Origin: a virus | DNA: 29,078 nucleotides | Reading direction: 5' to 3' (one strand) | Virus record (IMG/VR): IMGVR_UViG_3300047562_003209 | Span: 1-29,078 of that record | Shown: positions 9,401 through 27,848 of the stretch, one piece after another | Numbering within the stretch: position 1 is the first letter of the stretch | Layout: every line of letters starts with the position of its first letter | Made by a program: the position numbers and the translations under genes | Notes under the pieces: generated by a model | Databases searched by the model: none | The model's input: the letters and a program-made list of their open reading frames with translations, nothing else | Told to the model about the DNA's origin: nothing

Positions 9401-12400
9401 ATTTAATAATGCAAAAGGGGCGAAGGCTTGAGCCCAGAAATGTTCCAGGCATTGATTATTCGGCGGCTGAGGATGCTGCAGTAAAAAAAACGTATGGCGA
9501 TCCAGAGTTTCAAAAAGTACGAAAAGCTTATGTTGAATTCTATAATATACCAAAGGAGTTTGCTCCAGATATTGAGCGAGCTAGTAACGCTGCTGGTCAG
9601 GCTTCCGAGGAGGCAAAAAGATTAGAAACTGAAGTCACGGGGTTGGTTTCTGGGCTGGAGCAAATCTCTAATCTGCTTCGCGGAACGGCGGACCTTGTTC
9701 GTGTCCCTTCAACAGCAGCTGAGCAAGCAGCGCTTCCTGTTCAACAAAAAACTGCCACTGACCTTGTTGGCGATTACTGGTCAAACGCTGCGGTTGACGC
9801 AAAAGAGCTTGACGAACGACTTAAGCGTGAGTTCTCTGGCCCTGGGGCAACTGGCCTCATGGCAATGGTTGACTTCTGGGATACATCGTTTGAGCAGGCT
9901 CAAAGAATTGCAAAACAAGCAGACGAAGCGGCGGCAGAAGCTCAAAAAGCCAAACAACAAGTCGCAGAGTCGTTTGCGCCTTCTGTGCAAAAAGCCGAGC
10001 AGCTTGACGAAGCGCGTCGCAGACAGGCGACTTTTGATGCCTTCGCAGTAGCAAGGCAGCAGGCGGAGGCTGATGCGAGGGCGGCCTCTGAGGCGATTGC
10101 ATCTCAAATCACTGAGCCAGTTAAGAAATCAGCGCCTCAGGGAGAAAGAAAAATCCAAGCAGCTATCAGCAGCTTGTTCGATCGAGTTTCTGAGATATTC
10201 AAGGGAATCGGCGGCTTTGGCGGTCGAGGTGGAGTTGGTGGCGGCGGTGGTCGCGGTGGCGCTGGAGGTGGCGGTGCAGGCGGTAGCGGGGACTTTGGCC
10301 GTCGCTTGGAGCAAGCTGTAGCCCAGGGTCCAGAAGCCCTGCTGGGGCTCAGGGAGCTAGCCAAGCCCGCTACTGCCTCCATCAGGGAACTGGAGGCTCT
10401 CAGCTCTGTCTTGAAGGAGTTCAGAGCTGTTCTCGATCCAACCGTTGAGGGCTTTGATCGACTGGAGAAGCAGCTCAGGGAGACGGCTGCGAATCTTGAT
10501 CGCCAGCTTGAGCGCCGTTCGCCTGATGCTGACTTCCTGACTCGTCGCTTTGGTCCTAGAGGTGGTCGTGCGGTCAGCGAGGGCCTGATTGGCGGCGCCT
10601 TCCCCTTGCTCTTTGGGCAAGGGATTGGCGCAGCTGCGCTTGGTGGACTTGGTGGTGCTGCTGGTGGCTTTGCTGGGGGCGGACTTGGCTTTGGTTTGTC
10701 GCTGGTTGGTACGGCGCTTGGTACTGCGTTTGACACACTCAATCAAGCCGCTCAAGAAACAGGTAAGTCGCTTCGATTCCCCGTTGAAAGCTTTGAACAG
10801 CTCAGGCAGGCTGGCTTGATAGCTACTCGTCAGCAAGAATACTACATTTCTAAGCTGATTGAAGCGGGGCGACTGACTGAAGCGGCTGGTGAAATTCAAG
10901 CGGAAATTATCAAAAAGATTGGCGTTGAGGGTGTTCAAGACTTGCAGCGCCTTGGGGATTCCTCCTCTCGCTTGAGCAAGGCTTGGGCTGAGTTCAATCT
11001 TCAACTTCAGGCAGCGCTTGCAGGTCCAATGGCCGGCCTTCTTGATTGGGTTGGAAGCATTGTCGCAGATGCAAACAAAGCAAATCGCCAGACTGCCGAA
11101 CTACGCGATTTCATGCAAGCTTTAACGCCAGAGCAGCGGCAAAGTTATCTCCAAAGAAGTATTGAGCTTCGCACTCAAAACAATGGCACTGTTGATCCCG
11201 CAGCACTGCAGCGTCTGCAGCGTGAATTCCTGCCCGGCGGCGTTCAACAGCCTCAAGCTGCGCTCACGCAAGAAGAACTAGACAAACAAAAGCAAGCGCA
11301 GGCTGTCACGCAAGAGCTTCAAGCGCAAGTTGCATTACAGGCTAAGCAGCTTTCTTTGACAGGATTGACGCTTGAGCGTGACGGCGCTCGCTATGTCAAC
11401 ACAGCCCGAGCTGTTGCACTCCAAGAATACGACAACAAGCTACTTGAGATTAAAAATGGCTGGATTGGGAAGATATTTAACGCAGAGCAAAACTTTGCTC
11501 AGGTTCGTGGCGCCAATCTTGAACTTGCCGCTCGTCTCAGGCAGATAAACGAAGAAATTGCGCAGCGACAGGAACAGCTTTATCAAAACTCGCTGCAGGC
11601 TGAAATTGCTCTCTATCAAGAAGCGCAGAAGAGAAATGACCTGATTGTGCGATTTGCCGCTTTCAACGAAGGGGAAGAAGCCGGACTGAAGAAAAGGCTT
11701 TCGCTTATGGAGAATATACGGCAGCAGAGACTTGCCGAATTTTATACAGAAGCCGAGCTTGCGATGATTCAAGCTCGCAAAAACGGAACCGCAGAGCAGA
11801 CTGCAGCCTTGTACGCAAGTAGGCTGATTACTCTGCAATCAGAGCTTGATCTTGAAGAGGGAATCACAAAACAGCAGCTAGCCCAGCTTCAGCTAAGCAA
11901 ATTCATTGCAGCCGAAGAAAGCAAGCGCCAAGCGGCTGACCCATTCGTTCAGTTTAGGGAAACGCAGCAACTTGAACAGCAATACGCAAAAACTTATTAT
12001 AGACTCCTGAAGGAGGGTGCAATTCCAGCCGAGGCGGAAAGGATTGCAGGTTTTGAGCGACTTGTCAGCGAAAGGCTCAGGGCAATTGACTCCGATATTG
12101 CATTCAATCAAGTCCTCTTGGATCAAGCAAGAAAAAGCGGTGTTGCGGCAAGCGAGATAAACAAACTCGTTGATTCAATTGAGAACCTCAATAAAGCTCG
12201 TGGGGCGGTTACTGAACAGGCTACTCTCGGCCCCGGCTCAGCCGTTGAAGAAATCCCTGGAGCAAAGATTCAAGGATTTATTTCAAACGCAGAGCAAGAG
12301 CTGAAGGATCTTGAATCTGTCGCCATTCGCGTATCTCAAGGTATCGGCGATGCCGTTGGAAATTCACTAACAAATGGCATCAATGGTTTGATTGAAGGCA

Positions 12401-22379: not shown

Positions 22380-23267
22380 TTACAACTCAAATCTATTTTT
22401 GATTCTTAGTAAAAGCGCACAGCGTTGCAGCGCTGTTTTCTCCATCGACTGAAGCTTGCCCCTGCTAAGTCCAGTGGCAGTCGATATGTCTTTCCAAGGT
22501 GTTGGAGGGTCTTTCATTCGCTCAAGAACGATGAGCTTACTTGTATTGTCCAGGTATCTGTCTATTGCATCATAGGCGTCTTCTATTTTTATTCTATTTT
22601 CCGCGTCTTCAATTGTATTTGAATGCTTGTCGTCGGGAATCAGCTCAACCATTGGGCTTGAGCCTTCAGAATCGTTCGCCTTTCTGTCTAAACTTGTAAT
22701 TACTTTTGGCGCAGTAGCTGTAAGCTTGATTTCTTCAATGCTTAAGCCGCTCCATTCTGATACTTCCAAAACAGTTGGCTCTCTGCCAAGATTTTTAGAT
22801 AAAATTTCAACCGTCTTGGCTATCTTTGCGGCTGAATCATGAGTATTTATTGAAAGCCGTATTACTGAATCATTAAACTGCATTGATCTTTGTATTGACT
22901 GCCTGATCCACCAATATGCGTAAGTGCTCATTGCGTATCCGCGAGTTGGGTCAAACTTTTCAACTGCTCTAGCCAAGCCAACATTGCCTTCTTGAACTAG
23001 ATCCATCAGCTCAAGAGTGCTGCATCTTGGGACGTATTTTCGTGCGATATTGACGACTAAACGAAGATTGCATTTAATAAATTTCTCTCTTGCTCTTTTT
23101 CCCGCCCTTGCAATTCTCTTCTCTTCTTCTGTGTATTCGTTTTCGTCTTTATCTTTTATGTTCATCCATGCCTGCACTTGTGTACCAAGCATGACCTCCT
23201 GCGCTTTTGTTAAAAGCGGGTAGCGTCCTATTTCATTGAGGTATGCTTGTGTCGCGTCGCGGGCCAT
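22380..23267 (-). CDS. RNA polymerase sigma factor, sigma-70 group 2-like (phage-encoded)
   Basis: The 295-residue protein has region 1.2 (ATQAYLNEIGRYPLLTKAQE), region 2 (NLRLVVNIARKYV, then LMDLVQEGNVGLARAVEKFD and GYAMSTYAYWWIRQSIQRS), region 3 (about 135-185) and a region 4 (PWKDISTATGLSRGKLQSME). Region 1.1 is absent. The first part reads like cyanobacterial SigB-E proteins. Region 4.2 is divergent: the recognition helix reads LSRGKLQSMEK where host factors have about VTRERIRQIEA. It probably directs host polymerase to phage promoters. ATG 23267 is chosen because homology starts there; the in-frame upstream extension to 23402 does not look like sigma sequence. Confidence 0.88.
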   Translation of the reverse strand: MARDATQAYLNEIGRYPLLTKAQEVMLGTQVQAWMNIKDKDENEYTEEEKRIARAGKRAREKFIKCNLRLVVNIARKYVPRCSTLELMDLVQEGNVGLARAVEKFDPTRGYAMSTYAYWWIRQSIQRSMQFNDSVIRLSINTHDSAAKIAKTVEILSKNLGREPTVLEVSEWSGLSIEEIKLTATAPKVITSLDRKANDSEGSSPMVELIPDDKHSNTIEDAENRIKIEDAYDAIDRYLDNTSKLIVLERMKDPPTPWKDISTATGLSRGKLQSMEKTALQRCALLLRIKNRFEL

Positions 23268-23427
23268 TTTGGTTGGCTGTGTCTTGAGAGACTTGCAAGT
23301 AGTGGAGCTTCCATCGGGCCTGCCACTCCTGAGCATGATGCCACACCATGCCGATTCCGTAAACGCGCCACTTCCACTGATTTTCTTCGCATGGACTTTC
23401 AAGCCAGGGTTCGTTACGCTCAGTCAT
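23233..23427 (-). CDS. Possible small Trp-rich protein upstream of the sigma gene
   Basis: A 64-residue frame runs from ATG 23427 to a stop 35 bases inside the sigma gene, in another frame. It has an unusual number of Trp residues (WLESPCEENQWKWRVYGIGM then VWHHAQEWQARWKLHYLQ). That composition looks protein-like, whereas the competing frame here (the sigma upstream extension) does not. No ribosome binding site stands out. If real, the sigma gene would be translationally coupled to it. It could equally be an accident of composition. Confidence 0.35.
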   Translation of the reverse strand: MTERNEPWLESPCEENQWKWRVYGIGMVWHHAQEWQARWKLHYLQVSQDTANQNGPRRDTSIPQ

Positions 23428-26158: not shown

Positions 26159-26169
26159 GAGTTCAGTGC

Positions 26170-26256
26170 CTACTTGTGAGCAAAAGAAGCTACGGCCATG
26201 CCAAACAGGCAGCCGATGACAAAAAACATTCCGAGTGATTGAACGGGAACCATCAT
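26170..26256 (-). CDS. 28-residue membrane peptide with a strong ribosome binding site
   Basis: The frame reads MMVPVQSLGMFFVIGCLFGM then AVASFAHK. It is a single hydrophobic helix (residues 8-26) with short polar ends, ready for the inner membrane. AGGAGG at 26262-26267 lies 5 bases before the first ATG (8 before the second), the best Shine-Dalgarno site in the window. Its ATG overlaps the stop of the Gly-Tyr repeat gene (ATGA). The overlap, site and composition together make translation likely. Confidence 0.6.
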   Translation of the reverse strand: MMVPVQSLGMFFVIGCLFGMAVASFAHK

Positions 26257-26540
26257 TCACTCCTCCTGCTGCGGCTTGGTGAGCAAGTGCCATAGCCATC
26301 GCCATAGCCATCGCCATAGCCATCGCCATAGCCATCGCCATCGCCATAGCCATGGCCATGGCCATAGCCATTGCCATTGCCATCGCCATAGCCGTAGCCG
26401 CAGCCGTAGCCGTAGCCGTAGCCGTCGCCGTTTCCATAGCCATAGCCATAGCCATTGCCATAGCCATAGCCATAGCCATCGCCATAGCCATAGCCACAGC
26501 CATGGCCAGAGCCATCGGCATAGCCGATTGGTCTAAACAT
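26253..26540 (-). CDS. Gly-Tyr dipeptide-repeat protein
   Basis: The 95 residues begin MFRPIGYADGSGHG. About 39 Gly-X pairs follow, where X is Tyr, Asp, Asn, His or Cys (for example GYGDGYGYGYGNGYGYG). The end is TCSPSRSRRSE. The DNA is a hexanucleotide repeat, so other frames are also open. This frame is favoured because its ATG overlaps the preceding TGA (TGATG) and its TGA overlaps the next ATG, and both neighbours are - strand genes. It should be disordered, aromatic and sticky; self-association or a surface role is possible. I recall similar repeats near DUF6948-type genes in other phages, unverified. Confidence 0.6.
   Translation of the reverse strand: MFRPIGYADGSGHGCGYGYGDGYGYGYGNGYGYGYGNGDGYGYGYGCGYGYGDGNGNGYGHGHGYGDGDGYGDGYGDGYGDGYGTCSPSRSRRSE
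26289..26525. repeat. Hexanucleotide repeat array (GCCATA/GCCATC type)
   Basis: About 39 units of six bases, mostly GCCATA, GCCATC, GCCATT and GCCATG on the + strand, run without interruption. In the middle (about 26391-26433) the units change to GCCGTA, GCCGTC and GCCGCA. On the coding strand this changes the X codon from NAT to NAC, which is synonymous for Tyr, Asp and Asn. It could expand or contract by replication slippage in steps of two residues without breaking the frame. Confidence 0.9.
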
Positions 26541-26836
26541 CAGCCAATCCCCCAGTTGTCAGAGACTGGTACGCAGAAAATTTCTGCTCCAGTAGGCATG
26601 TCCACATCAGCAATCGGACGAAGATCCGCTTGCTCTGTTTCGATCATTTTGGCGAAACCAATAGATTCCCATTTGAACACATGTACGGCACGGGATAGCT
26701 TGATGCGCCCATCTTCCCTGATAATATCACCAGCAAAGATCCAGCCGCGATCAACTACTACTACAGCTCGATTACCAGTGGGAACGGAATCAGCGCGGAC
26801 GTAAGTAACGCCGTTGATTTGTACAGAATTTTCCAC
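26540..26836 (-). CDS. Small conserved-type phage protein (DUF6948-like)
   Basis: The start is GTG 26836; 98 residues follow. MENSVQINGVTYVRADSVPT precedes the best-conserved part, RAVVVVDRGWIFAGDIIRED, and then SRAVHVFKWESIGFAKMIET and GAEIFCVPVSDNWG. I remember this 'RavVV.DRGWIfaGD' family from many phages, catalogued as DUF6948. It is small, beta-rich and of unknown function. Its stop overlaps the start of the Gly-Tyr repeat gene. Confidence 0.6.
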   Translation of the reverse strand: MENSVQINGVTYVRADSVPTGNRAVVVVDRGWIFAGDIIREDGRIKLSRAVHVFKWESIGFAKMIETEQADLRPIADVDMPTGAEIFCVPVSDNWGIG

Positions 26837-26892: not shown

Positions 26893-27231
26893 TCACCTCA
26901 CCTCCATCCGCAGCCGCGTTGCAGCGATGTGAAGCTCTTGCTGATAGAGCCAGTCGGAAACAGCAAGGATGGCGGCGCGGGTTTCTTCTTTGTAGGGGTG
27001 CCCGGCAGGGAGATTTGCTGTCATTCCCCATTTGCTGTAGATGGCATCCGCCACCCGCCCCACCAGTGAATCGGCGGGAACCGTCAAGGAATCCTTGACA
27101 GTTGGCCGCTGCGCAGCCTCCAGCGCCTCCACGCGGTCGCGGAGTTCAATTAAGCAAGAGTCATCGTTGAAGTGTTGAGCCTGTAGCTCAATCTGAGCCC
27201 ACTGCTCGGGCGTTGCTTTGTGTTTAGTCAT
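26893..27231 (-). CDS. Paralogue family member A (coiled coil + WLYQQ module)
   Basis: ATG 27231 overlaps the previous TGA (ATGA) and follows GGAGG by 4 bases, giving 112 residues. The order is an N-terminal part (MTKHKATPEQWAQIELQAQH), a coiled coil and linker (ELRDRVEALEAAQRPTVKDS, then VPADSLVGRVADAIYSKWG), and a C-terminal module (RAAILAVSDWLYQQELHIAA). The linker and the C-terminal module recur in the upstream paralogue. I associate such repeats with Synechococcus/cyanophage multigene families of unknown function. Confidence 0.65.
   Translation of the reverse strand: MTKHKATPEQWAQIELQAQHFNDDSCLIELRDRVEALEAAQRPTVKDSLTVPADSLVGRVADAIYSKWGMTANLPAGHPYKEETRAAILAVSDWLYQQELHIAATRLRMEVR
27045..27137. 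repeat. 93-bp direct repeat, copy 1
   Basis: This is base-for-base identical to 27623-27715. It encodes the coiled coil and linker (RVEALEAAQRPTVKDSLTVP and on to VGRVAD) in both paralogues. The flanks differ at once on both sides. Confidence 0.95.
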
Positions 27232-27848
27232 TGGGCCTCCTGCCGCAGCCGCTTTGCAGCGACGCGCCATCCTTGCTGATAGAGCCAGTCGGAAACGGCA
27301 AGGATGGCGGCGCGGGCTTGTCTGTGAACGCCAAACGCTGCGTTGCCGTAGATGGCATCCGCCACCAGCTCCACCAGCGAATCAGAAGATTCCGGCGCGT
27401 TGGATTCCACTGGCTTGGCGGCAGCCTCTAAGTGCTTCAGGGATCGCTCCTTCAATCTCGGCGCCTCCAGCTCCTGGTCTGCGCTCCATTGGGCGGCGCG
27501 GTTGGCGATGTGCTGTTCGCAGCACCAACCGCAAACTGCGTCCGTGTAATGTGCCTCGTGATACCACTTTTGCACCAGCTCAGGCGGTGGGGTGATGGGA
27601 TGCTGCTGTTTCATTGGGCCTCCATCCGCCACCCGCCCCACCAGTGAATCGGCGGGAACCGTCAAGGAATCCTTGACAGTTGGCCGCTGCGCAGCCTCCA
27701 GCGCCTCCACGCGGTTTTCAAGTTCGGCGATCAGCCCTGCTGTAGTCAATGCCCCTGCGCAGGTGGGTGTTTCGGACCCCAGAGGGCCGTAGACACGAAC
27801 CTCGATTTCCTTGTAAATGGAACTTGCGCGATCAAAGGGTTTAGTCAT
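27228..27848 (-). CDS. Paralogue family member B, apparent fusion of a truncated copy and a full gene
   Basis: AAGGAG lies 6 bases before ATG 27848 and the frame gives 206 residues. Residues 1-76 (MTKPFDRASSIYKEIEVRVY then the shared linker ending VGRVAD) stop where member A continues into its C-terminal module. Here the frame runs on through GGP into MKQQHPITPPPELVQKWYHE. That Met (ATG 27614) has its own GGAGG 4 bases upstream, so a second start giving 128 residues is likely. This part has VCGWCCEQHIANRAAQWSAD and ends with RAAILAVSDWLYQQGWRVAA. The pattern suggests deletion between two genes that kept the frame open. Confidence 0.6.
   Translation of the reverse strand: MTKPFDRASSIYKEIEVRVYGPLGSETPTCAGALTTAGLIAELENRVEALEAAQRPTVKDSLTVPADSLVGRVADGGPMKQQHPITPPPELVQKWYHEAHYTDAVCGWCCEQHIANRAAQWSADQELEAPRLKERSLKHLEAAAKPVESNAPESSDSLVELVADAIYGNAAFGVHRQARAAILAVSDWLYQQGWRVAAKRLRQEAQ
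27623..27715. repeat. 93-bp direct repeat, copy 2
   Basis: This is identical to 27045-27137 over 93 bases. Its downstream edge (in reading direction) lies at the fusion point inside paralogue B, next to CATTGGGCCTCC (27612-27623), which also occurs at the start of paralogue A (27229-27240). Confidence 0.95.

Follow-up and report, generated by a model that had tools for sequence, protein, structure and literature searches.

A hypervariable Gly-X repeat gene and its DUF6948-superfamily neighbour look like an undescribed early module of tailed phages

A viral DNA of 29,078 nucleotides (IMG/VR record IMGVR_UViG_3300047562_003209, analysed over its full length and referred to as the window) contains a gene built almost entirely of six-base units, in which glycine alternates with a second, variable residue (X). 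This raises the question of whether such an array is a genuine protein-coding gene and, if so, with which partner its product works and what it might do. The features concerned are the following.

26253..26540, minus strand: Gly-X repeat gene (N-terminus MFRPIGYADGSG, 39 Gly-X units, C-terminus GTCSPSRSRRSE)
26289..26525, minus strand: hexanucleotide array GGCNAY, 39.5 copies (TRF and repeat search)
26540..26540, minus strand: base shared by the TGA of the DUF6948-type gene and the ATG of the Gly-X gene (TGATG)
26540..26836, minus strand: DUF6948-superfamily protein of 98 amino acids, beta-rich, near-constant partner of Gly-X genes (profile links, structure model)
26169..26257 (approximate to a base or two), minus strand: 28-amino-acid ORF MMVPVQSLGMFFVIGCLFGMAVASFAHK with one hydrophobic segment

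The Gly-X ORF comprises 95 codons (95 amino acids), and TRF assigns the array a period of 6 with 84% matches. In line with the original prediction, about 39 Gly-X pairs (39 units) fill nearly the whole gene, which overlaps both neighbours. It begins at the stop of the DUF6948-type gene, where the TGATG overlap is expected to couple translation of the two genes, while its own TGA overlaps the ATGATG of the 28-amino-acid ORF. The latter is well conserved in L249, the nearest relative of the window, and an AGGAGG stretch sits within the C-terminal codons of the Gly-X gene. The 39 Gly codons of the array are GGC with a single exception (38 GGC, 1 GGA), compared with a GGC share of 43% in the other genes of the window, and there are 10 occurrences of a 24-base core pattern, against 0.00 expected in shuffles. 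The X codons (TAT 16, GAT 7, TAC 4, CAT 3, AAT 3, the rest single) specify Tyr, Asp, Asn, His, Ser or Cys. Gly makes up 41% and Tyr 21% of the protein, and its four Arg residues are grouped at the C-terminal end without periodicity. A PHROGs search returned no match for the pair, and Pfam TrAA12 and NCBIfam serine-rich matches to the Gly-X protein were rejected as low-complexity and below cut-off.

The other frames of the window array are also open, yielding Ala-Met, His-rich and Ile-Ala versions. Since a repeat of this kind is trivially open in most frames, frame openness alone proves nothing, and coding was therefore judged by other tests. Of 209 arrays, 200 have a start codon close to the DUF6948 stop in the Gly-X frame, whereas 73 and 14 do so in the two alternative frames. 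A stop codon no more than 6 nt from where the array ends is found in 41% of cases for the Gly-X frame and in 14-17% for the others. In 93% of 184 loci, the start codon of the Gly-X gene and the stop codon of the DUF6948 gene overlap. Relatives were also checked for stops or frame breaks, which had been named as evidence against translation, and an internal stop codon was found in 1 of 196 arrays.

Codon usage is equally informative. Within most arrays the Gly codon is near-uniform, but it differs between arrays, being mostly GGC and otherwise GGT, GGG or GGA (all GGA in L401). X residues are nevertheless alike in arrays dominated by each of the four codons (Y 40%, D 22%, S 21%, N 8%), with Y, D, S and N together accounting for about 92% of units. 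His and Cys each stay below 1% of X, although one transition away from Tyr, whereas D, S and N dominate besides Tyr in spite of the transversions needed. That the Gly codon varies between arrays while the X residues stay alike indicates that the peptide is conserved and excludes a fixed GGY motif. The ends of the window protein (MFRPIG...GTCSPSRSRRSE) follow the pattern of its subfamily, an (F)RPVG start and a GT.S..R.RR tail, which is shared by its relatives (MFRPVG.., GTCSPHRNRRVE and others). A tail with at least 3 Arg is found in 36 of 46 distinct tails of this subfamily, encoded by varied Arg codons that double as a Shine-Dalgarno-like stretch in 25 of the 46, and is mostly absent outside it. 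As far as such coding signatures go, the array encodes a genuine protein and forms the second gene of a two-gene module.

The original prediction had read a mid-array switch from NAT to NAC codons as a sign of selection. The switch is present. However, the third bases of the X codons run, in order, 14 T, 7 C and 18 T, and since a single contiguous block is more suggestive of one segment having spread than of numerous separate synonymous substitutions, the argument is weak on its own. Better grounds come from the overlap with the DUF6948 gene, from ends that are conserved and from the interchangeable use of GGC, GGT, GGG and GGA between arrays.

A survey of the neighbours of similar repeats, which had been proposed as a check, reveals two things missed at the time: a near-constant DUF6948 partner and a wide spread. 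The upstream ORFs of array loci from other contigs resemble one another, and A3-type partners match DUF6948 (Pfam PF22253) with E values of about 1e-22 to 1e-28. No direct Pfam match was found for the window's own upstream protein; its type is linked to DUF6948 through profile comparisons (A1-A2, E 4.5e-14, 98.2%; A2-A3, E 1.4e-7, 94%; A3 being PF22253), and we place it in the DUF6948 superfamily by way of these intermediate profiles rather than a direct match. Searching with DUF6948-type proteins in three scans that took no account of the array identified 240 viral loci, 228 of which have a GGN-xxx array just downstream of the DUF6948-type gene. The other 12 consist of nine that end at a contig edge, two without array (L400, L426) and one with a short Gly-X stretch of 5 units (L438). 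In the reverse direction, a DUF6948 gene lies within 1.5 kb upstream in 91 of 103 assessable array loci. Named phages carrying the pair infect Rhodobacter, Rheinheimera, Iodobacter, Pectobacterium, Dickeya and Vibrio; cultured carriers include Rheinheimera phage Barba1A (gp018/gp017) and Rhodobacter phage RcapNL (gp47/gp46).

For the window DUF6948-type protein, AlphaFold2 gave a confident model (65 sequences, mean pLDDT of 88.7) of five strands, a helix and three strands (bbbbb-a-bbb), an order that does not look RRM-like. A PDB sequence search with the DUF6948 alignment detected no relative among solved structures. In the open-access literature, we found no mention of DUF6948 and nothing relevant on phages combined with lamprin or Gly-Tyr repeats; the paper on the Barba phages mentions neither the repeats nor gp017. 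Judged by these genomic comparisons, the two genes appear to form a hitherto undescribed early module, present in many kinds of tailed phages. The two-gene module itself is well supported, while its mechanism, discussed below, is what we infer.

Several variations on this arrangement were observed. A few arrays stand behind or inside DUF7666 proteins (L029, L046, L111), a second partner domain. In others (L412, L413, L416, L418, L435, L438), the array is fused to a C-terminal domain, IDGxxTII...FAHGxTLxEA...WHHxLTGSC, with no Pfam match. Tandem Gly-X genes, at least two per phage and sometimes in different frames, occur in L003, L013, L028, L049, L059, L074, L084, L094, L261 and L274. Several contigs, among them L250, L278, L337 and L342, end at or just past the DUF6948 gene, where the array is expected; such repeats are probably points at which assemblies from short reads break.

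The repeat changes much faster than the neighbouring genes. In the Pectobacterium phages Ymer, Abuela and Amona the DUF6948 genes are identical, and that of Taid is 99.7% so, yet the arrays measure 222, 222, 204 and 258 nt, respectively, and differ in unit order. Across Pectobacterium phages, the Gly-X genes span 162-270 nt in steps of 6 and keep their ends, bearing out the expectation that length would change two residues at a time with the frame kept. The Barba phages of Rheinheimera show one N-to-Y unit change and the gain of one unit, and in one Rheinheimera phage the array is entirely different although the adjacent DUF6948 gene differs by a single base. Many close metagenome pairs behave likewise, and such scrambling extends to phages of one host strain. 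Slippage had been proposed as the source of variation; changes in length agree with this, but unit order and X content change too, which the original prediction, on the whole partly supported, had missed.

Within arrays, entropy is 1.11 bits at the first and 0.83 bits at the second X position, versus 0.23 and 0.29 bits at the silent third positions of the Gly and X codons. Because silent sites are homogeneous, the spread of units must be recent and the pattern partly mutational. Our reading of these values is that units spread fast, erasing neutral variants, while selection would retain a mixture of X residues. In bacterial microsatellite contingency loci, gain or loss of repeat units rapidly changes a coding sequence, as it does here, but since the unit is a multiple of three, the Gly-X repeat would tune a protein and not act as an on/off switch. 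Diversity-generating retroelements concentrate variation at positions one and two of NNY codons. Variation in the X codons has the same location but is largely of whole units and limited in alphabet. Such an element was rejected, as no reverse transcriptase (RVT_1) match was found in the 29-kb record, possibly a fragment.

In a random sample of 128 ORFs within 4 kb of arrays, most of them matchless, the neighbours that could be matched include helicases, recombination exonucleases, annealing proteins and HNH enzymes, with RecE, YqaJ, Sak, ERF and NinB/G among the families, as well as the anti-defence proteins Lar (anti-restriction) and Acb3 (anti-CBASS); no capsid or tail families are among the matches listed. 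In the window, the pair sits with a sigma factor, a dCTP deaminase and MazG, on the strand opposite the structural genes. Recombination and replication neighbours, together with this gene group, suggest that the pair is expressed early. The sigma-70-like factor (22380-23402, minus strand; regions 1.2, 2 and 3) is phage-encoded and lies beside a lysis gene. DNA of the region has a weak match to Synechococcus phages, making a cyanobacterial host likely. Small ORFs near the Gly-X gene contain an exact 93-base direct repeat (27045-27137 and 27623-27715) and an 86% repeat of 84 bases (26901-26984 and 27236-27319), which we read as a segment shuffled between two hypothetical genes. Finally, a Gly-rich repeat linker in a putative tape-measure protein (10222-10288, plus strand) has a unit unrelated to the Gly-X array.

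The best explanation, put forward tentatively but with a real chance of being right, is that the Gly-X gene encodes an early, disordered, self-associating Gly-[Tyr/Asp/Asn/Ser] polymer that works with the DUF6948 protein. Six-base units would be gained, lost and reshuffled, altering the polypeptide by two residues per step, while selection would hold its composition and ends. Judged from its composition, the early product is probably disordered: Gly with Tyr, Asn, Ser and Asp and an Arg-rich tail is the make-up of disordered self-associating proteins. Self-association, plausible by analogy, would proceed through Tyr with Gly, Asn, Ser and Asp as spacers, the Arg-rich tail adding to it in the window subfamily. 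The resulting condensate or mesh, which the DUF6948 protein would contact to nucleate, recruit to or regulate it, may act during DNA metabolism or counter-defence, presumably to the benefit of the phage. The closest parallels are FUS-type low-complexity domains and tick-GRP77, a Gly-rich protein of the tick-cement kind with Arg and aromatic residues that phase separates through both (PMC11794139); they likewise mix Gly with Tyr, Ser, Asn and Asp and few Arg. The window protein has the Gly, aromatic and Arg residues of phase-separating Gly-rich proteins, but its Arg are clustered at the end rather than periodic, and it differs in being a near-perfect dipeptide repeat of phage origin, for which condensation is a prediction.

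The main rival, which we consider unlikely, makes the polymer a variable bait, inhibitor or identity tag, carried by DUF6948, whose sequence changes let it evade a host sensor or a competing phage; self-association would not be needed. Fast scrambling of arrays between phages with identical flanks, even on one host strain, the presence of Lar and Acb3 nearby and the tandem paralogous genes of some phages would fit such a counter-defence or inter-phage factor. However, an alphabet limited to Y, D, S and N is unlike escape from a specific binder, PADLOC yielded no defence-family match, and hypermutable repeats scramble without selection for change. It is improbable, though related, that the assembly of DUF6948 and Gly-X proteins tells self from other phages, the scrambled array serving as a lineage identity code for a viral condensate or a co-infection exclusion system.

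Equally doubtful is a virion or adhesive component, a silk- or polyglycine-like fibre or coat. The composition resembles that of adhesive Gly/Tyr proteins, one record names the Gly-X protein lamprin, and in Pectobacterium phages the gene is located between tail genes; outside these phages, however, the neighbours are early DNA genes, and the window gene runs opposite to the structural genes. That the array is a by-product, a slippage-grown repeat in a dispensable frame behind DUF6948 encoding a functionless protein, is highly improbable: such repeats expand easily and the silent sites are homogeneous, but the array is retained in about 95% of loci and three diverged subfamilies, the four Gly codons share one X set, and ends and overlap are conserved.

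The strongest non-coding rival, also disfavoured, has the array act as RNA: together with the DUF6948 protein it would make up a ribonucleoprotein and serve as its hexanucleotide guide, comparable to the vrRNAs of VIPR (alternating GGY/NN). It was considered because the layout is similar to that of VIPR (PMC13142463): a small phage-borne protein beside a tandem repeat in which GG is fixed and other bases vary, and related consensus motifs are reportedly found among the VIPR types (PMC13142463). In VIPR, a non-coding RNA of pentanucleotide repeats, free at its NN positions, is paired with a 20 kDa RAMP, whereas here a coding hexanucleotide with four main X residues adjoins an 11 kDa beta-rich protein. 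The YNNGG pentanucleotide is absent (the period is 6, not 5, and relatives have pure GGG and GGA arrays), as is a free-alphabet NN: TA, GA, TC and AA make up more than 90% of X dinucleotides, too poor a set for a target code. With start, stop and ends kept as protein and a strand order in the DUF6948-type model (only the window ORF was modelled) that appears to differ from that of an RRM, a guide RNA is the least probable of these readings.

Should the pairing hold experimentally, hundreds of environmental and cultured phages would share an undescribed two-gene early module. If this is true, its second product would be among the most repetitive and fastest-changing of phage proteins, and phages would have a low-complexity protein that assembles by itself and can be tuned through slippage of its repeat. 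The genomes of 115 Rheinheimera and 8 Pectobacterium/Dickeya phages constitute a natural series of array variants in length and order.
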